NCBI GenBank assembly: GCA_009785115.1
Contig: WQWY01000015.1
Span: forward strand, 1-64,000
Source of the DNA: Micrococcales bacterium
GTDB lineage: Bacteria > Actinomycetota > Actinomycetes > Actinomycetales > Cellulomonadaceae
Reading direction: 5' to 3'
Length of the DNA: 64,000 bases
The notes beneath the pieces were generated by a model, which had not been told where the DNA came from, did not search any database, and saw nothing but the letters and a program-made list of their open reading frames with translations. Position 1 is the stretch's first letter; each line of letters starts with the position of its first letter. Of the stretch, positions 7,543-46,299 are shown in pieces. The position numbers and the translations under genes were made by a program.

Positions 7543-8402
7543 ACCCTCTCCTCGTCCACCGGGTCGTCATCGTCGTAGTCGGTGCTCAGCTCCACCTCGC
7601 CGGAGCCGCTGCCCGTCCAGCGCACCGCCAGCTCGCCCAGGGGCACCACCTGGTCGAAGGCCACCGCCCCCTCCCGGTACAGCTCGAGCAGAGCCAGGAA
7701 GCGCGCCACGACCACCAGGGTCGAGCCCGCGTCGGCCACCAGCGCCCGGAACGACACCGACGTGTGGCGACGCAGCCGGTCGGTGAGCAGCGCGGCCTCC
7801 TCCCGCACGCTGACCATCGGCACGTGCAGGTGCGACAGGTCCACACCGGGCGGAAGGGGCTTGGGGGCCAGTGCCCGAGCGGCCAGCACCGCGAAGGCCT
7901 CGGGGCCCAGCGTCCACACCAGCTCGGGCAGCAGGGCCGCCATCTGCGGCTCCAGGGGCACCGAGCGGGGGAAGGCGAGCGCACTGGCCTCCCAGCGCTG
8001 ACGCAGCGTGGCAGCGATCTGCTTGTAGGCGCGGTACTGCAGCAAGCGGGCGAACAGCAGGTCGCGAGCCTCGAGCAGCTCCAGGTCCTCGGCGTCCTCC
8101 ACGTCGCCGGTCGGCAGCAGGCGGGCCGCCTTGAGGTCGAGCAGCGTGGCGGCGACCACCACGAACTCGCTGGCCTGCGACAGGTCCCACCCTCCGTGCT
8201 CGGCCGAGCGCAGATGGCTCAGGAACTCGTCGGTGACCTGCGCCAGGGCGACCTCGGTGATGTCGAGCCGATGCTTGGCGATCAGCCCGAGCAGCAGGTC
8301 GAAAGGTCCGGAGAAGACATCCAGGTGGACCTCGAACCCCTGTACCCCCTCGAACCCCTGTGCCCCCGCAGGCTGGTCGAGCGCCTCAGGCGGCGTCGCC
8401 AC
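7539..8402 (-). CDS. scpA: Segregation and condensation protein A (kleisin)
   Basis: The kleisin subunit bridges SMC heads. FEVHLDVFSGPFDLLLGLIAKHRLDITEVALAQVTDEFL is the family N-terminal signature. A winged-helix C-terminus follows. The GTG start at 8402 overlaps parA by 17 bp. The first 20 residues contain a short duplicated GFE(G/V)VQGFE stretch encoded by an imperfect 18-bp tandem repeat, so a slightly later start is possible. It lies in the same operon as scpB. Confidence 0.95.
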   Translation of the reverse strand: MATPPEALDQPAGAQGFEGVQGFEVHLDVFSGPFDLLLGLIAKHRLDITEVALAQVTDEFLSHLRSAEHGGWDLSQASEFVVVAATLLDLKAARLLPTGDVEDAEDLELLEARDLLFARLLQYRAYKQIAATLRQRWEASALAFPRSVPLEPQMAALLPELVWTLGPEAFAVLAARALAPKPLPPGVDLSHLHVPMVSVREEAALLTDRLRRHTSVSFRALVADAGSTLVVVARFLALLELYREGAVAFDQVVPLGELAVRWTGSGSGEVELSTDYDDDDPVDEERV

Positions 8403-9252
8403 GAGCGACGAGCTCGCGGGCGAGCTGTCGGTAGGCCTCCGCGCCAGCGTGCGTCGGGGCGTAGGTGGTGATCGGCTCGGCGGCGACCGTGGCGTCCGGG
8501 AACTTGATGGTCCGGGTGATGACGGTCTGCAGCAGCGTGTCGCCGAAGGCCTCGTAGACCCGGGCGACCACCTCGCGGGAGTGCAGGGTGCGCGGGTCGA
8601 ACATCGTGGCCAGGATGCCGTCGATCTGCAGGCGCGGGTTGAGCCGGTCGGAGACCTTGTCGATCGTCTCCTTCAGCAGGGCCACCCCGCGCAGCGCGAA
8701 GAACTCGCACTCCAGCGGGATCACCACGCCGTGCGAGGCCGTCAGCGCGTTCACCGTGAGCAGGCCCAACGACGGCTGGCAGTCGATGAGCATGATGTCG
8801 TAGTCGTTCATCACCGGACGCAGCGCCCGGGACAGCGCCTGCTCGCGGGCGACCTCGTTGACCAGCTGCACCTCAGCCGCGGACAGGTCGATGTTGGCTG
8901 GCAGCACGTCCAGACCGGGCGTGCTCGTCTTCTTGATGACCGCTCTCGGGTCGGGGTCGCGGGCCATGAGCAGGTCGTAGACCGAGTGCTCGATGTCGTA
9001 GGGGCTGATCCCCAGACCCACCGACGCCGCGCCCTGCGGGTCGAAGTCCACGACGAGCACCCGGCGCCCGTACTCGGCGAGCGCGGCAGCCAGGTTGATC
9101 GCGGTGGTGGTCTTGCCGACCCCGCCCTTCTGGTTGCACAGCGAGATGACGCGGGCAGGGCCGTGCTGGGCCAACGGCGCTGGCTCGGGGAACTCGAGCA
9201 GCACGCGACCCACGACGTCGATCTGACCAGTTGTGGTCTCGATGCTCACCAC
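8386..9252 (-). CDS. ParA/Soj-family ATPase
   Basis: A deviant Walker A KGGVGKTT is at residues 42-49. FDPQGAASVGLG and the MLIDCQPSLGLLT Walker B region follow. The length of 288 residues fits chromosomal Soj-like ATPases. This copy lies with xerD and scpAB and without a parB, so it is the second ParA homolog usually found at this locus rather than the origin-proximal ParA. Its exact cargo is unknown. Confidence 0.9.
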   Translation of the reverse strand: MVSIETTTGQIDVVGRVLLEFPEPAPLAQHGPARVISLCNQKGGVGKTTTAINLAAALAEYGRRVLVVDFDPQGAASVGLGISPYDIEHSVYDLLMARDPDPRAVIKKTSTPGLDVLPANIDLSAAEVQLVNEVAREQALSRALRPVMNDYDIMLIDCQPSLGLLTVNALTASHGVVIPLECEFFALRGVALLKETIDKVSDRLNPRLQIDGILATMFDPRTLHSREVVARVYEAFGDTLLQTVITRTIKFPDATVAAEPITTYAPTHAGAEAYRQLARELVARGDAA

Positions 9253-34426: not shown

Positions 34427-37400
34427 CTACCGCTCCTCGTCCGGGAGCTCATGACGCTGGGTCTGCTGTCCAGACTCCGAGACCTGCAGCGCTCGTCTGT
34501 ACATCTCCTCGGCCCGGTCTGTGTCGCCACGTGTGCGGGCCAAGAAGCGAGCGTAGAACCTCAGGGTGTCTGCGTTCTGCGGGTCGACCTCCAGCGCCTG
34601 CTCGTACAGGTGCTCGGCTCGCTCGGGGTCGCTCGTCGCCAGGAAGTCCGCGTACCGCCACAAGATGTCGGCGTTCCGGGAGTCGATTCCCAGAGCCCGT
34701 TCGTAGACCTCTTCAGCCCGGGGACGGTCGGCCTTCTCCAAGAAGACAGCATAGTTCCCCAGGGTGCTGAGGTTCTTCGGGTCGACCTCCAGCGCTTTCC
34801 TGAACATCTCGTCCGCACGAGAGGTGTTCCCACGGGGGCCGGCAAGGAATCTCGCATAGTAGCGCAGGACGTCCACGTTTCTTGTGTCGATCTCGAGCGC
34901 CCGCTCGTACATCTGCTCGGCGCGATCCGGATCGACCTTCTCCAGGAAGTCCGCGTACCGCCACAAGACGTCGGCGTTCCGAGGGTCGATGCTCAAGGCC
35001 CGTTCGTACATCTCCCCCGCACGCTCGGGAGCCACCTTCTCCAGCAGCACCGCGTAGTTCCCCAGCGTGTTCAGGTTGTAGGGCTCGACCTCTAAGGCCC
35101 GCTTGAACATGTCCTCCGCGCGGCGCAGGTTCCCTCGGCGACGGATCAAGAAGCCCGCATAGTTGCGCAGGGCGGCCGTGTTCCGAGGGTCGAGGCCCAG
35201 CGCCTGCTCGTACAGCTGTTCGGCGCGGTCGGCGTCGACGTTCTCCATGAAGTCGGCGTATCTCCAGAGCGTGTTCACGTTGCGAGGATCGAACTCCATC
35301 GCCTTCTCGTACATCTCCCCCGCGCGGCCAGGGTCGACCCGCTCCAGCAGCACAGCGTAGTTAGCGAGGTTCTCCGCGTTGTCGCTGCCGGCGCCCAACG
35401 TCCTCGCATACAGCTCGTCCGCGCGGTGCGCCTCCCCACGCACCCTGAGCAGGAAGGTGGCGTAGTTCCTGAGCGTCGCCTCGTTCTGGGGGTCGAGCTC
35501 CAGCGCCCTCTCGTACAGCTGTTCCGAACGGTCGGGATCGACCTTCTCCAGGAAGTCTGCATATCTCCAGAGGATGTCGATGCTCCTCGGGTCGACACCC
35601 AGGGCACGCTCATACATCTCTCCGGAGCGCGCAGGGTTCGTCCGCTCCAAGAACACCGCGTAGTTTCCGAGGTTGTCCACGTGCTCGGGATCGAGCTCCA
35701 GCGCTCTCTCGAACATCTCTTCCGCGCGCTTCTCGTCACCACGGATCCGCCGCAAGAAGGCTGCGTAGTTTCCTAGGTTGTTCACATGCTTGGGATCGAC
35801 ACGCAGCGCCTGAGCGTACATATCCTCGGCACGGTTCTGATCACGACGCACCGTCGTCAGGAAGGTCGCGTAGTCTCCCACGGTGTTCGCGTGCGTCGGG
35901 TCAGCTCTCACCGCCCGTGCGAACACCTGGTCAGCGAGCTCGGGATCGATTCCGCTCAGGAGGGAGGCGTAGTTCCGCAGGTTTCGCGCGTGCCCGGGGT
36001 CGACAGCCAACGCCCTCTCGTACATCTCTCTCGCACGATCGACCTCACCGCGCTCTCTCGCGAGGAACAGCGCATAGTTGCCGAGGGTGTCCGCGTCTCC
36101 CTGGCCGCTCAGGCCGTCTTCCGCTCCGGTGAGGTGCTCGGAGGTCACCGCGATCGTCAGCTCCAGATATCGGAGCAGCACGTCTGCCGACACCGGGCTC
36201 TCCCGCCCGATCCTCTCCGCGTGCCAGCGCAGCGCCTGCGCGTCGGCCAAGAACTCCTTCGCACGCCGCTCAGCCCCTGAGAGCTGCGACGCCGGACGGT
36301 CAGCGGCTGCCGGCTCGCCGTCGTGGTGAGCAGCGTCTCGGTCGTCGAAGATCGAGTGCAAGAGGTTCTTTCGCTCGTTTCCCTTGGCCTCACGGAGCAG
36401 GCGGTAGTCCTTCGGGTAGAGGATCTGGATCAGTGTGATGATCGCTGTGATCCTCGGGTCGTACTGTCCGTCCAGGTGACGATCGTCCAGGAACTCTGTC
36501 ACCTTGCCCCTGGCGAGGAAGTGGTTGGTGTTCAGCGAGTTCACGACACGGATGGTCTGCCGCAGCGTCGCGTTGCACTCGATGAGCGCCTCGGCGAGCA
36601 GCCCTGGGGCGTACTCGGACGCTCCGTCGGGGCACACACCGTTCCTGACCTCGCTGGCTGCCACCGTCTTTCCCAGCACATGTCTGGTGAACTCCAGGTA
36701 TGCCGCCGCGGAGATCGGAGGGAGGTAGATCGCGTACTGGACCATCTTCTCCAGGTAGAGGTCGGCGAGCTTGTCCTCCCGCTCCTTCTCGTCCTGATCG
36801 TCCCCTCCGTCGTCGACCAGGTGCGGCAGGCTCTTCTTGACGACGCGTCTGACGGCGTTCTCGTCGGCCCCGAGCACGAAGACGCACTGTCTCTGCCCGA
36901 GGAACAGCCGGATCTTCTCCAGAAGGTCGACAGCCACCTCTGGGTGACACCGGTCGAGGTCGTCGATGAAGAAGACGACCCTGCGCGGTTCGCTCTCCCC
37001 GTCCTGTTCTCGCCTCTTCTTCTTCGCGTTCCCGATCTCGTGCACCCACGGGTCGCCCTCCACCCACGGGAGCCATCGGAACCACCGGCGACGCCTCTCG
37101 GCACGACGACGCGCCTTGTACCTCCGTGCGCTCTTCGGCCCGGTCTCGACGTTGACCAGGTCGTCGATGATCTTGTCGAAGGTCATCTTCAGCCGGGTCT
37201 GCTGGTCCTGGACGGCGAACCTGGCTTCCTTCTCCTGGTGCACCCTCTCGACCAGAGTCCCGGTCGTCGTGCCCGCGAACGTCAGCCCGCCCGCGCTCCC
37301 CGCTGCTCTCCCGACCTCCAGCGTCGTGTCGACCATCGTCGTCAGCACACCCTTGAACCAGTCGCTCATCTGGTTCCGCCACGCCACCAGGGCCTTGCCT

Positions 37401-37795
37401 CGCCACCCGCTCGCGCTCAGCCTGCGCCCGAGCTCCTCCCGGGCCGCGTCGAGCATGGCGATCACCGGGTTGACGTCGTTCTGGTGCTCCCACAGGTTGA
37501 AGTACACGGTGATGAACTGCCCGCCGCGCACCGCAGGCACGTCCGGGATTCCTTCACGCACCTCGTCGGGCAGCGTCTTGCGGACCTCAGGATCGATGCA
37601 CGCGCGGACCCGCTCCATGAAGGAGGACTTCCCCGAGCCCCACTCGCCGTAGATCGCCACCGTCAGAGGCAACGGCCTCCCAGAGGCGATGGCTTCAGCC
37701 ACCACCCGGACCAGCCGTCCACGATCCAGCTGGTCGTCAGCGGTCGGGTTGTCGACGAGGACGTGGACCTCGCGGGTACCGGGACCGTCGGGCAT
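34427..37795 (-). CDS. KAP-family P-loop NTPase with 16 TPR repeats
   Basis: The 1122-residue protein has an N-terminal KAP NTPase domain. Walker [10 protein letters not shown] is at residues 50-58, and Walker [12 protein letters not shown] at 273-283 has the DDLDRC signature. A large basic insert (residues 220-265) lies before Walker B. From about residue 569 to 1110 there are 16 TPR-like repeats of 33-35 residues (pattern LxNYAxFLxx...RAExMYERALxxDP). The last 12 form four copies of a 101-residue triple. No long hydrophobic helix pair typical of membrane KAP proteins is evident. It lies outside the DGR direct repeats but in the same accessory interval between uvrB and coaE. Inference: a conflict or defence NTPase with a repeat-based sensor. 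Its function is not established. Confidence 0.85.
34466..35677. repeat. Four tandem 303-bp units in the TPR array
   Basis: The same TPR position recurs at 34641, 34944, 35247 and 35550, exactly 303 bp apart. The first two copies of the stretch starting AGGAAGTCCGCGTACCGCCA agree over nearly 40 bp. Each unit encodes three TPRs of different subtype ([15 protein letters not shown]-containing). This points to amplification by unequal recombination. Confidence 0.85.
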
Positions 37796-37906: not shown

Positions 37907-38010
37907 TCAAGCCGGGTCAGCCTCGGCGGCGCGTTCGGCGAGCAGGCGGGTCCACAGGTCGTCGACCTGGGCGATCAGGTCGTGGTCGGAGCCGGTGCCG
38001 TCGAGGATGA
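37907..38010 (-). repeat. Detached coaE 3' end, left direct repeat of the DGR island
   Basis: These 104 bp match coaE positions 45676-45779 with only 4 mismatches, stop codon included, and encode the same last 34 residues of CoaE. The mismatches are synonymous. Homology ends abruptly at 38010, 14 bp from the reverse transcriptase stop. It is read as one attachment-type end of an inserted element. Confidence 0.9.
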
Positions 38011-38024
38011 GGAGCTCTCCCGTG

Positions 38025-39083
38025 TCATCTGCCCCTGGACCATGACGCCTCCGAGAGGATGGCCTGACGCATCGCGAAGGTGGCACCATGATCGAGGTGC
38101 GCGACGTAGCTGTGAATCGACTGACGCACGTCTGCCGCTGAGACCTCGCCCGCCGCGAACTGCTCCGTCAGCATCTTGACGCGGCGACGCATACGTAGGC
38201 TGGTCTGATGGGACACTCGGCGCACCACCGAACCGGTCGGGGTCAGCCGCGAGTGGAACCCGAGATATGAGACGCCTTCGGTCAGCGGGAAGATCTGCGT
38301 CTTGGCGTTGAGGGACAGGCCGATCTCGGCCAGGTGATCGATCATCTGCTCCAGGCAGCGGCGCAGGTGCTCCTTGCTCGGGTGGATGAGGACGGCGTCG
38401 TCCATGTAGCGGGTGTAGTACCGCACGCTCAACCGTTCTTTGATGAGCCGGTCGAGGCTGTCGAGGTACACCAGGGCCAACCACTGGCTCGTCTGGTTCC
38501 CGAGGGGCAAGCCGACACCAGGGGACTCCTCATAGCTGGTCACGATCCGTTCGAGCATCACCATGATGCGTTCGTCACCGAAGACGCGGGCGAGCAGGCC
38601 CAGCGCCTCGTCGTGGCGGATCGACGCGAAGTAGTGGCGGACGTCGCAGCGCAGCACATACCCACCGTGCCCGTGGCGCCGAAAGTGCTCACGCATGAAC
38701 CCGGCCAGACGGTCGAGGGCGAAGTGCGTCCCCTTTCCCTGACGGCACGCGGCGTTGTCGTAGACGAGACGCGGATCGAGGGCAGGGCGCAGCACCGTGT
38801 CGCAGAGCGCGTGCTGCACCACACGGTCCCGGTAGGGCGGTGCGAACACCTGACGTACCTTGGGCTCTCGCACGACGAAGTGGGCGTACGGGCCGGGCTT
38901 GTACGCCCCGGCCGTCAGTTCTTCGTGCAGCTGCCACAGGTTGGCCGCTAGGTCCATCTGGAACTCCATCACCGCACGGGTCTTCCGTTTGCCCTTCCGA
39001 GCCGCCGCATGGGCGTAGAGCAGCGTGTCGAAGTCGGCCATGTGCTCGAACGTGCCGAGCGACGGCAGCAGGTGGTCTGCCAT
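38025..39083 (-). CDS. DGR-type reverse transcriptase
   Basis: The 352-residue protein holds reverse transcriptase motifs in order: motif A LRCDVRHYFASI (Asp147), the SQ motif LPLGNQTSQ (192-200) characteristic of DGR enzymes, and catalytic YMDD (226-229). There is no retron- or intron-type extra domain. It would reverse-transcribe the TR RNA with adenine-specific errors. The ATG at 39083 follows AGGAAGGAG at 8 bp. The longer upstream frame lacks similarity. It lies directly after the TR, as in the Bordetella phage order target-avd-TR-RT. Confidence 0.95.
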   Translation of the reverse strand: MADHLLPSLGTFEHMADFDTLLYAHAAARKGKRKTRAVMEFQMDLAANLWQLHEELTAGAYKPGPYAHFVVREPKVRQVFAPPYRDRVVQHALCDTVLRPALDPRLVYDNAACRQGKGTHFALDRLAGFMREHFRRHGHGGYVLRCDVRHYFASIRHDEALGLLARVFGDERIMVMLERIVTSYEESPGVGLPLGNQTSQWLALVYLDSLDRLIKERLSVRYYTRYMDDAVLIHPSKEHLRRCLEQMIDHLAEIGLSLNAKTQIFPLTEGVSYLGFHSRLTPTGSVVRRVSHQTSLRMRRRVKMLTEQFAAGEVSAADVRQSIHSYVAHLDHGATFAMRQAILSEASWSRGR

Positions 39084-39423
39084 GGCCGTGCTCCTTCCTC
39101 TCGTCTCGTTCGTGCTCACAGTCCGGAGGGTGGCGACGCTGCGGCGCCGCCACCCTCCAACACTGCTTGCCGCAGGCTCACAGCCAGATGCCGCAGGCCC
39201 ACCGTCCGAAAAGCTGGCGGTGCGGTACTCCCCGCACAGCACAGCCGTCCAGACGCGCGCCAAGCCTCTTCGGCGTCACGGCCGGCGTCGACAGAACCCA
39301 GCACCGGAGCCCTGCCCCGTGCCGACCTCCGCGCCCACCAGGCCGCTCGACCAGGAACCTGAGTCCTTTCCCTCATGCACGGACGGCCCCACCTGGGTCA
39401 CCGTTTCTGGCATCGAGGGGAAT
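39084..39423 (-). ncRNA. TR-RT spacer, part of the DGR template RNA
   Basis: The 340 bp between TR and the reverse transcriptase hold no gene-like frame with family similarity. In studied DGRs the RNA downstream of TR is needed for cDNA priming, so this is probably transcribed as part of the template RNA. An 11-bp hairpin lies near its RT-proximal end. Confidence 0.55.
39125..39158 (-). repeat. Hairpin in the TR-RT spacer
   Basis: A perfect 11-bp stem GGAGGGTGGCG/CGCCACCCTCC with a 12-nt loop lies 41 bp before the reverse transcriptase ATG. It may structure the template RNA or limit translation of the enzyme. Confidence 0.6.
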
Positions 39424-39556
39424 CGGGGCGCACACCGCCGACCGCCGCGACGCCGACACTGTTGTTGTTGCCGTTGTCGTTCAGGTTGCCATCGGTGTTC
39501 ACGTTGGCAACGTTCGCCGGCGCGTTGCCGGGCGAGCGCAGCCACCACCAGGCGCT
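39424..39556 (-). repeat. DGR template repeat (TR)
   Basis: This 133-bp non-coding repeat is identical to the VR at 40255-40387 except at 18 positions. On the coding (minus) strand every difference is an A in TR. TR is rich in AAC codons in the VR frame (eleven AAC, plus GAT, GAC and AGT at changed or changeable sites). AAC mutagenesis allows many residues without creating stops, the classical DGR design. It begins 4 bp past the avd stop. Confidence 0.97.
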
Positions 39557-39560
39557 CCAC

Positions 39561-40157
39561 TCAGGCCCCTTGCACACCCCCTCCCTCCTTCACGGCACCA
39601 CCCGGCCCAGCAGCGAGACGCCCCGGGGTGTCGTGCCGTGAAGGAGCCAGAGCCGCCGCAGCGGCCCCGTCTGCGGGCGGGGCGTGACGAGGCCCCTGGG
39701 CTTCGTCACGCCGTTCCCCGCTGGGAGGAGGCACACGTCTCTGGTCGCTCGCGATCCAGCGACCCGTCAGGCGCTGCACACCCGTCGTCAGGCGGCCGAT
39801 CTCGGCGAAATGCTTCGGCAGGACGCAGTCTTGCTGCATCGCCATCTCAGCCACGTAAGCGAGCAGCCTCGCCCGTGTGATCGCACGCTGCTGAAGCGCT
39901 CGACGCTCCTCGACGTCTTCCGCCCGGGCACCTGGGCCAACATAGATCCCGTTAGCTGTGAACAGATACTCTAAGATGTCCAACGCGAACCCTTGCATCC
40001 GCGTCACGAACGTGAATCGAAATTTCTTCGGCGATCGGTCGGTCACCTCCATGACGAGGCTGCACAGATCCTTGGCGACCTCGACGACGACAAGGTCGTC
40101 TCCCCCGCCCTCCGGACCACTCTTGCGACCGCGTCTCGAATATTGTTTCGCTGTCAC
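39561..40157 (-). CDS. avd: DGR accessory variability determinant (Avd-like)
   Basis: Residues about 25-140 match the Avd four-helix bundle pattern: VAKDLCSLVMEVTDRSPKKFRFTFVTRMQGFALDI, a turn, RRALQQRAITRARLLAYVAEMA, and LTGRWIASDQRR. Avd forms a basic pentamer that binds the reverse transcriptase and template RNA. The GTG at 40157 is favoured (purine-rich AAAGAAAGAGCGG upstream). The frame is open to a TTG at 40220 inside a hairpin. The last 50 residues are low-complexity Pro/Ala/Gly and coincide with a 14-bp RNA hairpin, so this tail may exist for RNA structure rather than protein. Confidence 0.85.
   Translation of the reverse strand: MTAKQYSRRGRKSGPEGGGDDLVVVEVAKDLCSLVMEVTDRSPKKFRFTFVTRMQGFALDILEYLFTANGIYVGPGARAEDVEERRALQQRAITRARLLAYVAEMAMQQDCVLPKHFAEIGRLTTGVQRLTGRWIASDQRRVPPPSGERRDEAQGPRHAPPADGAAAAALAPSRHDTPGRLAAGPGGAVKEGGGVQGA
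39585..39646 (-). repeat. Hairpin just upstream of TR, within avd 3' end
   Basis: Perfect 14-bp arms CTCCTTCACGGCAC and GTGCCGTGAAGGAG enclose a 34-nt loop. The structure ends 28 bp before TR on the transcribed strand. Its perfect pairing inside coding sequence suggests an RNA element of the DGR template transcript. Confidence 0.65.
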
Positions 40158-40208
40158 CTCACCGCTCTTTCTTTGAGAGGCTTTCGCTATATCTGACAGT
40201 CTCGCGTC

Positions 40209-40230
40209 GAGACGGCGCAAGCGCCGTCTC
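40209..40230 (-). repeat. Inverted repeat after VR, overlapping the target stop codon
   Basis: GAGACGGCGC and GCGCCGTCTC are separated by 2 nt, which would fold as an 8-9 bp stem with a small loop. It begins in the TGA of the target gene and lies 24 bp past the end of VR. DGRs in phage and bacteria carry such hairpin/cruciform elements downstream of the VR, where they stimulate retrohoming. A terminator is the alternative. Confidence 0.7.
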
Positions 40231-43200
40231 AGGATTCAAGATTCAGCCATAAAGCGGGGCGCACACCGCCGACCGCCGCGACGCCGACACCGTCGTAGCC
40301 GCCGTAGCCGCCCAGGGCGCCACCGGTGTCCACGCGGGCAACGAACGCCGGCGCGTAGCCGGGCGAGCGCAGCCACCACCAGGCGCTAACATCTTCGCCT
40401 TCAAATTTCGCTTGCCCATGATCGTACACCTGAGGTTTGTTCACAGGCATGTTATTGAAATAGTTCAACACCTCTTCCCTGTTCAACAAGAACACTCTGT
40501 CTTCATTCGATTTTTCAGTTCTCTGAAACACTATGTCTTCACCAGAACCACTCTCGTCCCAACCTTCGGTGACGACCGGACGAAGAAGCACGTAGCGATA
40601 TGCCTCGTCGCCGACGAGACGCCTGACCGCCTGTTCGTCGTTCAGGGTTCGTCGCAGCCAGCAGCGATCCCAGTCGACAGTGCCGTCCGCGTCGTGGAAA
40701 GGTGCCAGCGCCACCACGTCCTCACTCAGCAGTAGCGCCCGCAGGCTCAGGCCACCGCCGGGGCGACGCTCTCCTCTGACGGTCAGAACCCGCCAGGAGC
40801 GCTGCCCCAGGTCGACGGTCGTCTTGCTCTCTGCCGGGTCGTAACCATATTCCGCGTACGCCCCGGCCTCGTGATCGACCTGACTTTCGTAGTCGAGAGG
40901 CAAGGTGTCCACGATCTCCCGGCAAGCAGCCCGGTACTCACCCTCGACACCGTCGAGGGCAGGTCGACACCATACGATGCCGGGCCAGCGACTGAGCGTG
41001 CCGTCAGCCTCGGCCTCCGCCAGGCGACGGAATACCTCGTCCCAGTTCTTGTAGAGCCAGTGCCAACCGTTTCCGACCCGACCAGCGCCATCGAGGCCGA
41101 CGGTGCTCAGCATCTGTGCTGCCATAACCTCCCACTCGGCCTTGGCCACACTCCACCCTTGCTCCACACCGACGCACCTTGCGAGGTACTCCCAGACCCA
41201 GAAGGTTCGCGTGCTCGCGTCGCTGCTGGCGTCGTCCCCGTACAGACCGGTAGCGCGCAAGCGCGGGAGAATGCCTTCTGCACGGATCTTTGCCTTGCGC
41301 CAACCCATGTATGCCTCACGCCACAGGGCCAAGCGCTGGTTCTCCAACACCTCGGCTTCGTCGACAAAGGGTCGATCGGCAGCATCCGTGGCCCAGACAG
41401 CATCACCCTCCAACTCACGCCATGCCACATAGCGGTCGGCCGCGTGCACCGCCGCTGCCCACTGTCCCAGCCGGGACCGAAGCTCCTGTTCCTTTTTCCA
41501 GGGTTCCAAGCGTCCGGTTTCAGCAGCCTGACGTAACCATCCGGTCGCACGAAGGCCGAGAGAACGGGTGATGTCGGGCACTGGTGCATCCCACACGCCC
41601 CATGTTCCACGGCTCATGAGCCACAGCGCGGCGTCACCCACAGAACGGCTGGCTTCGACATACATCTGAGCCTGGTGCACCTGAAGGTCAGGGAACAGGC
41701 TCAAGACCTCGATCAGTTCGGCGTAGTCTTCGGCGACTCCCACATAGCAGGAGGCGTAGCTCTCGGGGGTGCCCTTCTTCTTCTCGGCGTCTTTCTTGCG
41801 TTCTCGTGCTCTGCGCAAGAGGGCTCCGGCCAAGTTGTCGCCTGCTTCAGCGTAGCCCGCCTCGATCTCGTCGGAGGTCTCCGTCGACCGGCGAGCGCTC
41901 CACCAGGCGAACAAGCACCGCGCCAGGGCCACAGGAAGGTCCCTGAGCCAGGGAACCTCTACGACCTGACGGAATGCCTCAGTCGCCTCGACGGCTGCTT
42001 CTGCGTCAGCCAGCCACAGCCCACCCGCGTCGCACGCCTTCGTGCAGCCTTTCGCCAACCATTCGTCCCACGCCCTCTCCAGCTCGGCCCGTCGAGCGAA
42101 GACACCTTTCTCTCGGACCTGTTTCGCCGAGTCGAACGTGCGTTGCAGCACCCCCACCACCGACAAGGCACGATCAAGAGGCAGGTCGGCGATCAGCTCG
42201 GCAACAAGGTCTTCACTGAGCAGCGACCCCTCGCTCAACTCCTTCCACACGATGTGCTCCAGCAGCGGTGTGGGCTGGATCGTGGAGATGCTGCTGACCT
42301 TCGGGCCTCGGTAGCGTCCCGGATAGAGCCAGGTCAGCACCTCAGCGGTCGCCGCACACGAGACACCCAAGATCCCCCGAGCGGCGGTGACCCTCTCCAC
42401 CACCACTTCTTGCCACTTCTCAGGAAGGTCTTCCAGCACCCCGCCTTGTTCTTCGTCCCAGAACAGCAAGGCCCGCACCACCAGCACGTCCCTGAGGAAG
42501 TTGATCCCGTTCTTCCTGACCGTGAAATACAGGTCGTCTGACGCAGCGTCGAGCTGCCCCGCGTCGCACCACACAGACTCTTGCATCATCGACTCGGCAT
42601 GGCGCCACCAGTAGTGCTCCTCATGCTTGGCAAGGCGTTCGAGCACCTTCGGTAAGGTGTCGAGCTCTGCCGTGCTCGTCCTCAGAGCCTCCGCCAGGGC
42701 GAAGAAGTTTCTCGCCAAGGGAGTGGGCGCCTCGGTGATCGAGGGCAGGGCCGCCGTGTCCACCCCAGATTGTTGAGGGCTACGCAGTGCCTCTCTGTAG
42801 GCTTCGACCGACTCCATGAACGCCTTGAGGAACGCCTGCTCGCCCTGTTTCCGAGAACTCCCGATCCGCCAGTGCCAGTCATCGCCCAGGGTGAGCCCGC
42901 CAGCCTGAAGGTCACGCTTGAGGTCAGCGCGCCGAGCAGCGAGGAGAACCTTGATCCTCCCACCGTTGCGGGCGTGCCGGGCTGCGGCCTTCACCTCTGG
43001 CAGGATCAGCGACGTCCCGTCCGAATCTTTGAACGTCGACGCGTCGGCGTGGTCGATAAAGACGAGCGTCGGGTGCCGGCCCGCTGCGCGTGCGATGCGA
43101 TCGACCAGCGGCTCGTCCCCTCCCAGGTCGTCTGCTACCACGCTCCCCAACCGCCTGGCCTGCGGGCGGTAGTGGTAGAACCTCTTCTTGGCTGCGGCAG

Positions 43201-44089
43201 CTTTGTCCACAGCCTCGACGAGCAGCCGGGTCTTGCCCCATCCGCCAGGCCCCGTCACCAGGCGTACGCAGTCTTCTCCGCCGCGCTCTACCCACTCGAT
43301 CACGTCCGCCGGGTCGATGCCCGACCACGACACCTGATACGGCGCGACGTCGTGATCGGGGGTCAGCATGCGAGCAGGCGAATCCTCTCTGGGGTCGTAG
43401 CGGCCCGGGAGCGACCGTGCCGCCTTGCCCAGCTCGGAGTGCTTCGCCGTGAGCATCGACGAAGCTATGGCAAAGAAGGTCCCTGCGACCAGAAAGGCCG
43501 CCCAGCCTGCGGCAGGCCCCCAACCGTCCGGCGTCGACTGCTGGAACAGGGCCTTCCCCACGGCAGCGAGCCACGGGCCGCTCAGCACCGCTGCGCACAC
43601 CAGCTCTGCCAACGTGCACACGATCACCCCGGTTATGCGGAGAAACACCGCCTTCTTCGCATCGAAGTGCTCTGTCTCTGTGGCCAGACGGCCGGCGAAC
43701 GTCACCCAACGGGCAGCCAGCACCCCGGCAACCGCCACCAGCACCCAGCTCCAGCGTGGCCCTGTCGTGGTGGCGAACCACGCTGCGGCCCACACCGCGA
43801 CGACCAGCAGCACCCGTGCGACTCGCTCCACCCAGATGCCCTGGAAGTTGTTCAGCCCGCGCACCCGAACCCGTGACGCCCGCGTGACCATCTCGCGGCG
43901 ATGAGCCGCCTCCGCACCCACCGTCGCCACCACCAGTGCGACTGCCCCGCCGAGGGGCCACCCCCAGGCCGACGGCACGAACGGTATGACACGAGCTCCG
44001 AGGACCACCCCGACGCCTACCAGCAGACCGAAGATGACAGGCCATGCCTCACGTACGGTGACTTGTGATCTACCCCTCCACGCGGCCAT
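40229..44089 (-). CDS. Membrane-anchored P-loop NTPase with DGR-diversified C-terminal domain
   Basis: The 1286-residue protein has about six hydrophobic segments in its first 213 residues (16-39, 43-60, 90-108, 113-131, 150-178, 194-213). A P-loop NTPase follows, with Walker A GPGGWGKT (280-287) and Walker B TLVFIDHAD (341-349), then a long helical region with STAND-like character, and from about residue 1090 a DUF6273-like ligand-binding domain ending in WWWLRSPG...GVRPALWLNLES. VR covers residues 1235-1279, where 13 residues differ from those TR would encode. Most architecture statements are inferred from motifs. This is the DGR target and probably a sensor whose binding face can be rediversified. 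It is not a phage tail protein, since no phage genes surround it. Confidence 0.9.
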   Translation of the reverse strand: MAAWRGRSQVTVREAWPVIFGLLVGVGVVLGARVIPFVPSAWGWPLGGAVALVVATVGAEAAHRREMVTRASRVRVRGLNNFQGIWVERVARVLLVVAVWAAAWFATTTGPRWSWVLVAVAGVLAARWVTFAGRLATETEHFDAKKAVFLRITGVIVCTLAELVCAAVLSGPWLAAVGKALFQQSTPDGWGPAAGWAAFLVAGTFFAIASSMLTAKHSELGKAARSLPGRYDPREDSPARMLTPDHDVAPYQVSWSGIDPADVIEWVERGGEDCVRLVTGPGGWGKTRLLVEAVDKAAAAKKRFYHYRPQARRLGSVVADDLGGDEPLVDRIARAAGRHPTLVFIDHADASTFKDSDGTSLILPEVKAAARHARNGGRIKVLLAARRADLKRDLQAGGLTLGDDWHWRIGSSRKQGEQAFLKAFMESVEAYREALRSPQQSGVDTAALPSITEAPTPLARNFFALAEALRTSTAELDTLPKVLERLAKHEEHYWWRHAESMMQESVWCDAGQLDAASDDLYFTVRKNGINFLRDVLVVRALLFWDEEQGGVLEDLPEKWQEVVVERVTAARGILGVSCAATAEVLTWLYPGRYRGPKVSSISTIQPTPLLEHIVWKELSEGSLLSEDLVAELIADLPLDRALSVVGVLQRTFDSAKQVREKGVFARRAELERAWDEWLAKGCTKACDAGGLWLADAEAAVEATEAFRQVVEVPWLRDLPVALARCLFAWWSARRSTETSDEIEAGYAEAGDNLAGALLRRARERKKDAEKKKGTPESYASCYVGVAEDYAELIEVLSLFPDLQVHQAQMYVEASRSVGDAALWLMSRGTWGVWDAPVPDITRSLGLRATGWLRQAAETGRLEPWKKEQELRSRLGQWAAAVHAADRYVAWRELEGDAVWATDAADRPFVDEAEVLENQRLALWREAYMGWRKAKIRAEGILPRLRATGLYGDDASSDASTRTFWVWEYLARCVGVEQGWSVAKAEWEVMAAQMLSTVGLDGAGRVGNGWHWLYKNWDEVFRRLAEAEADGTLSRWPGIVWCRPALDGVEGEYRAACREIVDTLPLDYESQVDHEAGAYAEYGYDPAESKTTVDLGQRSWRVLTVRGERRPGGGLSLRALLLSEDVVALAPFHDADGTVDWDRCWLRRTLNDEQAVRRLVGDEAYRYVLLRPVVTEGWDESGSGEDIVFQRTEKSNEDRVFLLNREEVLNYFNNMPVNKPQVYDHGQAKFEGEDVSAWWWLRSPGYAPAFVARVDTGGALGGYGGYDGVGVAAVGGVRPALWLNLES
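40255..40387 (-). repeat. DGR variable repeat (VR)
   Basis: The 133-bp 3' end of the NTPase gene, aligned without gaps to TR at 39424-39556. There are 115 identities and 18 substitutions, all opposite TR adenines (A to T, G or C). Substitutions are confined to 40291-40359. The last 36 bp (40255-40290) are GC-rich and identical to TR, as expected for the initiation-of-mutagenic-homing segment. Confidence 0.97.
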
Positions 44090-44150
44090 ATCCTGATCCC
44101 ACCATGAAGAGGCGACCAGCGACAGGGCTAGCAGTCGGGTGAATGCGTTC

Positions 44151-44552
44151 TCATCCGGTGGTAGGACCGTCGACGAGGGTGAGAGCTGGGCGGTCGCGGT
44201 CTCTCGCCACCTGGGCCAAGCGGGTGTCGAACGTGGCGAGGGTGGCGTCTTCGTGGTCAGCGACGTCGAGCACGCAACAATCAGGCAGTCGTAGAGACGT
44301 GGAAGCCCGGAGACGCCCGAGGCGCCACGGGTGCTCGGGGTCTGGTGACCAGACCATCACTCCGACCCGTTCCATCAGATCACGCAGCGCCGGCTCTTGC
44401 CCTTGCCTTGCTGCGCCTACCACGCACTCAGCGAGGGTCAACGGATGGATGAGCAGCTCTTCCTCGGTGTCCAGGATGTCCAACGCCTGGGCGGCGTGGA
44501 CGTGTCCGTGCTCAGCGAACGCGATGATGACGTTGGCGTCGAGGACGATCAC
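44151..44552 (-). CDS. vapC: PIN-domain toxin (VapC-like)
   Basis: The 133-residue PIN ribonuclease has acidic residues Asp5 (MIVLDAN), Glu42 (LTLAECVV), Asp91 (LPDCCVLD) and Asp109 (TFDTRL). The GTG start overlaps the antitoxin stop (GTGA). VapC toxins cleave tRNA or rRNA when freed from the antitoxin. It is the gene immediately upstream of the DGR target and would help retain the island. Confidence 0.88.
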   Translation of the reverse strand: MIVLDANVIIAFAEHGHVHAAQALDILDTEEELLIHPLTLAECVVGAARQGQEPALRDLMERVGVMVWSPDPEHPWRLGRLRASTSLRLPDCCVLDVADHEDATLATFDTRLAQVARDRDRPALTLVDGPTTG

Positions 44553-44812
44553 TCTGGCCAGTCCTCACGCAGACCCTCGAGGTAGTCCGGCGGGTAGACC
44601 CCGTGCAACGACCCCATGACGGCCTGGAGATCGTCACGCCGCCCTCGGCGGGCCTCGGCTCGCTGCGACTCCAACGCTGAGGCGCCCAGCAGGGCGAGGT
44701 TCGCCACCAGCTGACTACGAGCCTCGTGCGGCCATGCGGCCGAGGCGGCATCCAGCGCATGGTCGAGCTCAGGCGTCACCGAGACCTGAATCCGCCGCAT
44801 CACCGTAGGCAC
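44549..44812 (-). CDS. vapB: Ribbon-helix-helix antitoxin (VapB-like)
   Basis: MRRIQVSVTPELDHALDAAS is a ribbon-helix-helix N-terminus. The C-terminal GVYPPDYLEGLREDWPE likely wraps the PIN toxin. The GTG at 44812 lies 6 bp after a TACACT -10-like hexamer, so a leaderless start is plausible. The ATG at 44800 (MRRIQV) is the alternative. A perfect inverted repeat immediately upstream is probably its autoregulatory operator. Confidence 0.82.
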   Translation of the reverse strand: MPTVMRRIQVSVTPELDHALDAASAAWPHEARSQLVANLALLGASALESQRAEARRGRRDDLQAVMGSLHGVYPPDYLEGLREDWPE

Positions 44813-44819
44813 TCGCTAA

Positions 44820-44848
44820 GTGTACCACCAATGTTCTCAGTGGTACAC
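44820..44848. promoter_or_regulatory. Operator of the first toxin-antitoxin module
   Basis: Perfect 9-bp arms GTGTACCAC and GTGGTACAC with an 11-nt spacer overlap the -10-like TACACT, 7 bp upstream of the antitoxin start. This fits autorepression by the antitoxin-toxin complex. Confidence 0.7.
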
Positions 44849-44898
44849 CCTCGGTGCGGGCGCCTTCGGCGGCTAGGAGGGTCGGGGCTGGTGCCGGG

Positions 44899-45324
44899 TC
44901 AGACGGTGTCGGCGAGAACCTCCACCTCGACCTTGATGGCTTCGTAGGTCCCCAGGGCGCGGGCATCTCTGGTCACCAGGACGGCGTCGTGCTCCTTGGC
45001 AGCCAGAGCGACGAGGGCGTCGTAGACGGCACCGCCTGCGACCCCGACGCCGGCCAGCTGACGATGGACGTTCGTGGCGAGAGCCTCAGAAAGCGTCAGC
45101 ACCTCAGGAAACCAGGCGTCGATCAGCGCGACAGCCTCGGACGGCTCCACCTGGGCGTCCCCCGCCAAGCGGGTCAGCACGGAGTAGGCCTCCGCGAGAG
45201 AGTGCGCTGTCGCGCACAGGTCTCGACCTGACAGCGTCTCGACGATCAGGTCGTGCTGCGGGTGGCTACGCATGAGCAGCGGCACCGACACGGACGTGTC
45301 GCAGGCGAACCGAGGACGACTCAC
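44899..45324 (-). CDS. vapC: PIN-domain toxin (VapC-like), second module
   Basis: The 141-residue PIN protein has Asp9 (FACDTSV), Glu45 (HSLAEAYSVL), Asp102 (VYDALVALAA) and Asp120 (LVTRDARAL), the four acidic active-site residues. The GTG overlaps the stop of the AbrB-type antitoxin gene. It is unrelated in sequence detail to the first PIN protein except for the active site. Confidence 0.88.
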   Translation of the reverse strand: MSRPRFACDTSVSVPLLMRSHPQHDLIVETLSGRDLCATAHSLAEAYSVLTRLAGDAQVEPSEAVALIDAWFPEVLTLSEALATNVHRQLAGVGVAGGAVYDALVALAAKEHDAVLVTRDARALGTYEAIKVEVEVLADTV

Positions 45325-45560
45325 CTACGACCCGCGTCCCGCAGCGCCTCGATCATCTCGTCGGTGACGACGGTGTCAGAGTCGGCGACCAGCCGTCCCT
45401 GCTCGTCACGGACGATCCGCGCACGACGCCGCTCAGGGACGAGGGCGAGCCCCGCGCCGTAAGGAGTGATCTCGACCTTGGTACCAGACTCCAGGCGCAG
45501 CGCCTCTCGGTACGGCTTCGGGAGCATGATCCGGCCAGCGGAATCGACGGTGGCTAGCAT
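45321..45560 (-). CDS. AbrB/SpoVT-type antitoxin
   Basis: The 79-residue protein opens with a swapped-hairpin AbrB domain (VDSAGRIMLPKPYREALRLESGTKVEIT). The remainder should bind the PIN toxin. On the minus strand a TAAGAT hexamer sits 8 bp before the ATG, suggesting a short leader. Two direct TGGTAAG copies, 12 bp apart, precede it and may be binding sites. Confidence 0.85.
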   Translation of the reverse strand: MLATVDSAGRIMLPKPYREALRLESGTKVEITPYGAGLALVPERRRARIVRDEQGRLVADSDTVVTDEMIEALRDAGRR

Positions 45561-45675
45561 GGGAAAATCTTACCAGGCCACTTACCACGACGGGTACCCT
45601 GGTGTGAGAGGCCGAGCCGGGTGGCCAGGATGTGGAAGCGCGAGACTCTCCAGCGTGGAGGAAGACCGAACGGCG

Positions 45676-45779
45676 TCAGGCTGGGTCGGCCTCGGCGGCG
45701 CGTTCGGCGAGCAGACGGGTCCACAGGTCGTCGACCTGGGCGATCAGGTCGTGGTCGGAGCCGGTGCCGTCGAGGATGA
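45676..45779 (-). repeat. Right direct repeat of the DGR island (coaE 3' end)
   Basis: The last 104 bp of intact coaE, paired with the copy at 37907-38010. The longest uninterrupted identity, about 62 bp, is at the coaE-internal side (45718-45779) and is the likely crossover region. Confidence 0.88.
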
Positions 45780-46299
45780 CGTCGGCGGCGGCCAGGCGTT
45801 CGTCGTCGCTGGCCTGGATGGCGACACGGGTCTGTGCCTGTTCCTGGCTCATGCCGCGCAGGCGCACCAATCGTTCGACGCGCAGGTCTGCCGGGGCGTT
45901 CACCAGCACCAGCAGCTCGAAACGATCGGCCTGCCCGGTCTCGACCAGCAGCGGGACGGAGTGCACCACCACGGCCTGCGGGTCACGCACCGCAGCGGCC
46001 GCCTCACGCTCGGCACCGATCCGTCGAACCTCAGGATGGACGATCGCCTCCAGGCGAGCCCTCGCCGCGTCGTCGGAGAAGACGACCTGCCCGAGCGCCT
46101 CACGATCCAGGGTCCCGTCAGCGGCGAGCACGTCAGGGCCGAACTCCTCGAGCACCGCGTCGTACCCGACGGTGCCCGGCGCCACAGCGGCCCGTGCGAG
46201 CTCGTCGGCGTCGATCACCACCGCGCCCAGCTCTGCCAACCGTCTCGACGCGACCGACTTGCCCGCCGCGATGCCACCTGTGAGCCCGATGCGTTGCAT
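45676..46299 (-). CDS. coaE: Dephospho-CoA kinase
   Basis: Final step of CoA synthesis. P-loop GLTGGIAAGKS is at residues 5-15, followed by VIDADELARA, VVHSVPLLVE, and VNAPADLRVERLVRLRGMS. The 207 residues are complete. In many actinobacteria uvrB follows rpsA-coaE closely. Here 11 kb of accessory DNA intervenes. Its 3' end is duplicated at the far side of the DGR island. Confidence 0.96.
   Translation of the reverse strand: MQRIGLTGGIAAGKSVASRRLAELGAVVIDADELARAAVAPGTVGYDAVLEEFGPDVLAADGTLDREALGQVVFSDDAARARLEAIVHPEVRRIGAEREAAAAVRDPQAVVVHSVPLLVETGQADRFELLVLVNAPADLRVERLVRLRGMSQEQAQTRVAIQASDDERLAAADVILDGTGSDHDLIAQVDDLWTRLLAERAAEADPA

Follow-up and report, generated by a model that had tools for sequence, protein, structure and literature searches.

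A complete diversity-generating retroelement in an actinobacterial chromosomal island, with the predicted DUF6273 sensor of a probable STAND-like P-loop protein as its target

What does a diversity-generating retroelement (DGR) diversify when it resides in an actinobacterial chromosome, and how recently has it been at work? The question is raised by a 64,000-nt stretch of contig WQWY01000015.1, referred to below as the window; its genome is designated G000, and sister genomes of the same genus are designated G052, G053, and G054. An earlier description made from the letters of this DNA (the sequence-only reading) had proposed a complete DGR in the order target-avd-template repeat (TR)-reverse transcriptase (RT). 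All four parts were located on the minus strand (Table 1) and the window carries a complete DGR. The actinobacterial host assigned at that time is borne out by the ribosomal protein S1 encoded in the window, which matches PDB chain 8wi7_b with 6e-247 as compared to 3.6e-136 for the runner-up; PDB entries 8wif and 8wib are titled Mycobacterium smegmatis, and 8wi7_b presumably derives from the same organism. The interval delimited by the sequence-only reading, 37907-45779, is exactly the outer-edge span of a 104-bp direct repeat, which was left unexplained there, and that reading was silent on the identity of the target, on the island enclosed by the repeat, and on other proteins of the genome that carry the same sensor.

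The gapless alignment of TR and variable repeat (VR) comprises 136 bases with 19 differences, every one of them at an adenine of the TR, and the probability that 19 out of 19 differences land on 26 adenines by chance is 8.7e-18 (hypergeometric). Recounting the inner 133-base core returned the 18 differences described earlier (18 of 25 A compared with 0 of 108 non-A sites; Fisher 6e-17), and the 19th is an A to C exchange at window position 40254, on the frayed 3' edge of the repeat. This edge of the VR lies 20 bases ahead of the target stop codon. All 19 differences fall in codon positions 1 or 2. The 25 adenines of the TR core are spread over 15 codons (nine of them AAC), adenine mutation makes a stop codon in none, and about 10^14.8 protein variants are possible from the 15 variable codons. 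The two motifs reported for the RT are found at residue 192 (LPLGNQTSQ) and at residue 226 (YMDD). The avd-like gene proved to be genuine, as its product matches PHROG 3206 ('Avd protein of DGR'; 2.8e-15) and NCBIfam NF033474 (2.9e-5, under the cut-off of that model). Sequence searches of the PDB, whether with the single Avd sequence or with its profile, retrieved no Avd chain. The predicted Avd model is a four-helix bundle, for which a Foldseek search against the PDB returned nothing at E <=0.001 and placed 4dwl, the Avd of Bordetella phage BPP-1, at rank 9 (E 6.9e-3, TM-score 0.76 by target length), with 2gsc and 2rld ranking above it. The portion of PMC3240598 dealing with homing states that BPP-1 requires a hairpin after the VR and describes phage DGR hairpins as having a GC-rich stem of 7-10 bp, a GRNA loop, and a distance of 4-34 bp from the VR. 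Stem and VR distance of the window hairpin (shuffle p 0.010) agree with this pattern.

Table 1. Position of the DGR parts and of the other island features in the window.
Feature	Position	Strand	Remarks
DGR cassette	38025-44089	minus	order target, avd, TR, RT
DGR reverse transcriptase, 352 aa	38025..39083	minus	ATG at 39083; LPLGNQTSQ and YMDD intact
TR	39421..39556	minus	133-bp core plus 3 bases; direct TR/VR comparison
Avd accessory protein, open reading frame (ORF) of 219 aa	39561..40220	minus	conserved part about residues 40-170
Hairpin	40211..40232	minus	perfect 9-bp GC-rich stem, 4-nt loop; just past VR, overlaps target stop codon
VR	40252..40387	minus	target codon 1235 to first base of codon 1280
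Target, 1286 aa	40229..44089	minus	start codon uncertain (database copy 1234 aa)
PIN-domain (VapC-like) toxin	44151..44552	minus	Pfam PIN 4e-20
Probable antitoxin, 83 aa	44549..44800	minus	overlaps PIN gene; ribbon-helix-helix-like by eye, no Pfam match
Second PIN-domain toxin	44899..45324	minus	Pfam PIN 2.6e-11
MazE/AbrB-like antitoxin	45321..45560	minus	Pfam MazE_antitoxin 4.2e-7
Island left end	37907..38010	minus	coaE 3' end remnant including stop codon; 104 bp, 96% identical to 45676-45779
Island right end	45676..45779	minus	identical-length 104 bp inside intact coaE (45676-46299)

The target begins with six hydrophobic, transmembrane-like windows, two of them overlapping, at residues 12-215 (hydropathy), followed by a P-loop (GPGGWGKT at 280) and a Walker-B-like motif (LVFIDH at 342), and it ends with a DUF6273 domain (residues 1118-1283; Pfam 3.4e-10) that carries the VR. 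A Foldseek search of the PDB with the DUF6273 model returned nothing at E <=0.001. From these features, the target is probably a membrane-anchored STAND-like P-loop protein, and we consider it fairly probable that the DGR diversifies the DUF6273 sensor of this protein and that the protein would act as an immune-type receptor. Such a role as a cytosolic sensor is suggested by the NTPase motifs, the fusion partners of DUF6273 described below, and the defence-type neighbourhood. By analogy with BPP-1, TR RNA would be copied by the RT together with Avd, adenines would be misread, and the mutated cDNA would replace the VR beside the hairpin. A new sensor might then bind an invader component, upon which the NTPase part would signal to the N-terminal membrane segment and the cell would be protected. 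The cassette would travel inside a toxin-antitoxin island landing at gene 3' ends, and the one DGR would feed, or would have fed, a dispersed receptor repertoire.

Related cassettes were found by a pattern scan of named genomes, which recovered 59 RT relatives, all read as Bacillota, with 28-55% identity. Within the genus the RT is present in 3 of 81 genomes (E 1e-20), and within the family in 3 of 221 genomes (E 1e-30). Among the resulting 62 loci (59 named plus three from the genus), 33 passed a filter for TR/VR pairs that required no less than 75% of the differences to be at A, and hairpin scores were computed for these 33 loci. An Avd-like gene lies near the RT in 27 of the 59 named-genome relatives. 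Leaving the window itself aside, 32 loci have such a pair; targets from 18 of these, 19 in all, were scanned, and 16 of the 19 carry DUF6273 (exceptions L039, L059, and L060). Fusion partners of the domain include a KAP NTPase (G052), Hsp70 plus a kinase (G053), SIR2 (L014), a YobI-like NTPase (L019), leucine-rich repeats (LRR), and surface domains; at L015, DUF6273 is joined to TIR and the TR/VR pair is partly decayed (16 of 29 differences at A). A further 33 long DUF6273 proteins were found by their tail, including 15 with TIR, three with a kinase, and two with KAP.

In the genus, DUF6273 was detected in 4 of 81 genomes (E 1e-8), at 4 places in G000, 8 in G052, 10 in G053, and 4 in G054, linked targets included; G052, G053, and G054 also have the coaE ends most similar to that of the window. 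Besides its linked target, the window genome encodes four further full-length DUF6273 proteins (C4, C6, C13, and C2), all of them KAP NTPases and unlinked to the DGR, plus one fragment. Neither an RT nor an Avd turned up in the 21 stretches fetched around unlinked DUF6273 copies. Scanning 20 of the 26 unlinked DUF6273 ORFs revealed seven KAP NTPases, seven PknG-like kinases, and six proteins without another Pfam domain. The seven PknG-like kinases, in which rubredoxin or TPR parts are recognised, occur with their DUF6273 tail in G052, G053, and G054 (L228, L232, L233, and L241). In G000 and these three sister genomes, the domain is thus fused to KAP NTPases, PknG-like kinases, and an Hsp70-kinase, for the most part at a distance from any DGR, so that one DGR appears to feed, or to have fed, a dispersed repertoire of DUF6273 receptors. 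The C-terminal 257 residues of C13 are 64% identical to those of the Hsp70-kinase target of G053 whereas the remainder of C13 holds a KAP NTPase, and by sequence the pair is one sensor tail on two unlike effectors. The hairpin arms of the G053 target are kept in C13, and those of the G052 DGR target and of its copy on contig C65 are kept in C6; in C4 and C2 the hairpin is not strong, with a 5-bp stem (shuffle p 0.31) in the former and a 6-bp stem (p 0.075) in the latter. C6 and C13 are likely to be former, now retired, DGR targets, for which the shared hairpin arms are better support than the adenine bias. In G000, DNA matches to the TRs of G052 and G053 are limited to DUF6273 tails and a 24-base match on C8, so G000 has no TR of either sister type.

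Adenine bias in the unlinked tails was first judged by Fisher tests, which gave 5.8e-5 for C6 and 2.5e-5 for C2 (both against the G052 TR) and 3.9e-5 for C13 (against the G053 TR). As proof of DGR origin this bias was rejected, being undercut by 77 background tail/TR pairs in which A sites are likewise preferred (median odds ratio 4.9, maximum 20.8, 5-95% range 2.0-11.6), since TR adenines mark variable columns. At all codon positions, the odds ratios of C6 (8.7), C2 (9.3), and C13 (10.4) lie inside the 5-95% range of the background, C4 against the window TR (12.3) lies just over it, and the second VR of G052, on contig C65, lies above all pairs (21.7; 6 of 19 A and 2 of 114 non-A sites differ). 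When only codon positions 1 and 2 are counted, C6 (30.0), C13 (25.4), and C4 (22.2) exceed the background 95th percentile of 15.1 and C2 (14.4) stays below it. A search of the window genome for trans targets of its TR yielded one extra DNA match, C1 (73%), which was rejected as a live target; it is an orphan DUF6273/VR fragment of 113 aa (L004:9170-9511, minus strand) that differs from the window TR at 17 of 25 A and 20 of 108 non-A sites, and owing to these non-A differences it is not a recent product. Two observations concern G052. At L009 (pair 8335-8475 / 9048-9185), the VR exceeds the TR by 3 bases inside an ACA-repeat, which looks like slippage of the RT by one codon, and directly after the DUF6273 gene at L230 5081-6094 there is a perfect inverted repeat of 28 bp whose loop is 4 nt long, far longer than DGR-type hairpins. 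A combinatorial receptor system, in which a mobile hypermutating cassette invents DUF6273 tails, recombination swaps them among KAP NTPase, STAND-like NTPase, Hsp70-kinase, and PknG-like kinase, and successful tails, left behind frozen and unlinked once the DGR has moved on, form a memory of past encounters written in the genome, is a tentative and somewhat doubtful extension of these results.

Several results weigh against an immune-type receptor spread and diversified in this way. The label STAND rests on a weak profile match and on motifs, because in the Pfam scan the N-terminal NTPase is above the cut-off for no family (nSTAND_NTPase5 reaches 1.2e-4 and 22.4 bits, below the 34-bit cut-off), PADLOC gives no match for the target, and no full-length relative of the target is present among the 7991 candidates listed. 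The hairpin loop, CTTG on the sense strand, does not match the phage DGR consensus GRNA as given in that part of PMC3240598. No recombinase is found in the island, of which about 630 of 7873 bases are feature-free (longest gap 337), and the adenine excess of unlinked tails stays within the background at all codon positions except for the C65 copy of G052. Matches to the DUF6273 model in a viral library are phage proteins, and many of the clostridial cassette relatives diversify proteins with surface-type domains (LysM, Ig-like, LRR). Both points bear on a second reading, according to which the target is a surface or cell-cell recognition protein, anchored by its N-terminus and exposing DUF6273 outward to bind ligands or neighbours. 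This reading, to which the phage tentaclins, bearing their VR in DUF6273 according to the excerpted part of PMC10743442, also lend weight, seems rather unlikely to us, as the target has a P-loop and a Walker-B-like motif after its hydrophobic segments and no surface-type domain by Pfam, and as the sister tails of the genus are joined to KAP NTPases and kinases, which use ATP and would be expected in the cytosol. PADLOC matches of the KAP and kinase proteins were discounted as defence assignments, being generic to those folds.

How recently the DGR of the window has worked can be gauged from the repeat copies flanking the island, which differ at 4 of 104 sites. If rates are similar and the repeat copies were once identical, this rate predicts 4.2 non-A differences between TR and VR, and none was observed (P about 0.016). 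Since 0 of 108 non-A sites changed as compared to 4 of 104 in the flanking repeat, homing would be recent. Of the earlier wording 'active or recently active', the recent part is thereby upheld, and present activity is something that we infer. Comparisons were made with one genome per species. An element that homed once, then stopped working, and is now drifting is an improbable alternative: it can draw on the fact that only one genome is at hand, on the two non-A changes already present in the second VR of G052, and on the decayed pattern known at L015, but in the window none of RT, Avd, target, and hairpin is interrupted or truncated, and non-A differences between TR and VR are lacking altogether.

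The RT matches PHROG 1423 (9e-118) and, searched as a longer ORF reaching 39263, Pfam RVT_1 (4e-19). Its best PDB sequence match is 8ub7_A (5.4e-41), which we take to be the BPP-1 DGR RT, followed by 6ar1_A (GsI-IIC RT; 6e-18) and by other group II chains with weaker matches. A phylogeny was obtained after dropping 15 rows of less than 250 aa and without the retron-like L115 and the group II L116, which gave no match to the query. In this tree the RT groups with DGR RTs, apart from the single group II RT row, L114, which is the sole non-DGR row and has a long branch. The window RT falls into a 31-row group (100/99) that leaves the Anabaena and Prosthecochloris plasmid DGR RTs outside, in a tree whose rows include none labelled clade 5, the DGR lineage of multicellular bacteria of Dore et al. 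The three RTs of the genus form one group (99/98) within clostridial RTs, and six clostridial rows are their sister group (96/93). A prophage or phage DGR stranded in the chromosome and diversifying a phage tail protein is already disfavoured and very improbable. Faecalibacterium phage Toutatis does combine Avd, a DUF6273 ORF, and an RT, nd12 has a related RT, and the RTs of these phages are sister to the clostridial rows, but no phage structural gene was found in the island, the target is a large P-loop protein, and the nearest RTs reside in bacterial genomes (53% identity within the genus and, in named genomes, at most 51% along the full length) as compared to identities of at most 43% at 67 loci on viral contigs. 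An RT of group II intron or retron type beside coincidental repeats is hardly conceivable, and for group II introns this reading is effectively refuted. In its favour, the best NCBIfam RT model is a group II maturase (2.2e-30), although the 106 bits reached are far below the 300-bit cut-off of that model. The A-only differences, Avd, the TR position, the PDB ranking, and the tree oppose it, the retron row standing outside the tree for want of an alignable match.

With the BPP-1 DGR as covered by the consulted portion of PMC3240598, the window DGR shares RT, Avd, TR, a VR at the 3' end, A-only changes, and a hairpin after the VR; it differs by residing in a chromosomal island, by an NTPase-like target with DUF6273 instead of a tail fibre, by its hairpin loop, and by an RT in a clostridial group. 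Excerpts of PMC10907252 (Dore et al. 2024) report DGR-diversified STAND, NACHT, and KAP sensors in multicellular bacteria, with a CLec-type variable domain, and also mention KAP NTPase targets, candidate remote targets, and possible trans action. The STAND/NACHT antigen sensors described there resemble the window target in having a variable C-terminal domain on a P-loop NTPase. In contrast to the examples in those excerpts, with CLec/FGE domains, the sensor here is DUF6273, the RT branches away from the DGR RTs of Cyanobacteria and Chlorobi included in our tree, hosts are this genus and clostridial kin, the island has 3'-end repeats, and unlike effectors bear the same type of tail; neither Actinobacteri nor Firmicutes appears as a word in the main text of PMC10907252. 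DUF6273, described as C-type-lectin-like in the passages taken from PMC10743442, carries the VR in tentaclins and other phage DGR targets too, but tentaclins are presented there as phage receptor-binding proteins whereas here the domain is on a P-loop protein, KAP NTPases, and kinases. Like Avs and bacterial NACHT proteins, for which we follow the layout in the same excerpts of PMC10907252, the target combines an N-terminal effector-like part, a central P-loop, and a C-terminal sensor. Unlike them, its sensor bears DGR changes, and its NTPase matches no known family above cut-off. DGR-based immunity has been proposed in PMC10053308 and, within conflict systems, in PMC7159879. In the literature searched, KAP NTPases and retroelements occur together only in PMC10907252, and nothing was found for DGR plus Cellulomonas, a genus not established as the host. 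As far as this search goes, four things are new: the RT lineage, the pairing of a DUF6273 sensor with these effectors, a repertoire that is dispersed and includes a tail swap, and the 3'-end islands. DGR-diversified NTPase receptors are a proposed form of anticipatory immunity, mainly for multicellular bacteria; if our interpretation is true, a separate RT lineage with a different sensor in this genus and in clostridia would imply more than one origin of the arrangement and uncouple it from multicellularity, and the dispersed DUF6273 repertoire would offer a direct route to asking whether bacteria store receptors made by targeted mutation.

The island of 7.9 kb (7873 bases) consists of the DGR cassette and two toxin-antitoxin pairs between the 104-bp repeats. 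Integrative elements that land in gene 3' ends create a direct repeat of the host gene 3' end and carry toxin-antitoxin cargo. The island resembles them in the repeated coaE 3' end and in its toxin-antitoxin genes, and differs from those having their own integrase as none is present in the 7.7-kb stretch between the repeats. With no recombinase inside, we infer from the 3'-end repeats that the island may move and land at gene 3' ends. The distance between coaE and uvrB is 0.64-3.1 kb in 8 of 9 fetched relatives (the ninth contig ends first) as compared to 11.3 kb in the window, where the island and a KAP-TPR gene lie in between. The DGR of G052 sits elsewhere; at its two edges, the 3' end of a DUF58 gene is repeated over 47 bp (89%), and the intact DUF58 gene is adjoined by two genes judged by eye to be a probable toxin-antitoxin pair, the first of them with a weak helix-turn-helix match. 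On the contig with the DGR of G053, which stops about 1 kb past the target, no flanking repeat was seen. Of 81 genus genomes searched, 59 gave some match, and duplicated coaE ends were detected in one of these; an order-wide search of 396 genomes gave two coaE-end matches in G000 and in at least nine others (G267, G322, G408, G422, G442, G449, G459, G486, and G553), which are candidates for a like duplication. The coaE-uvrB interval looks like an insertion hot spot, since sister genomes too have defence-type genes there; in G054 (L101:3555-6688) it holds AAA_21 plus RloB and in G053 (L099:8501-9667) PIN and Phd-like ORFs recognised by eye. An Rfam scan of the window found two tRNAs only. Outside the island, 35 bp before uvrB, the minus-strand gene at 34427-37795 encodes a KAP NTPase with a long TPR array, and identities of 26-31% link its KAP part to the KAP parts of the four proteins with DUF6273 tails elsewhere in the genome, as if it were the same effector with a different sensor. 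Finally, the GC content is 57-59% in three of four 400-base windows at 39800-40799 compared with 61-71% around them, and this dip at 39800-40800 is perhaps the trace of a low-GC donor.

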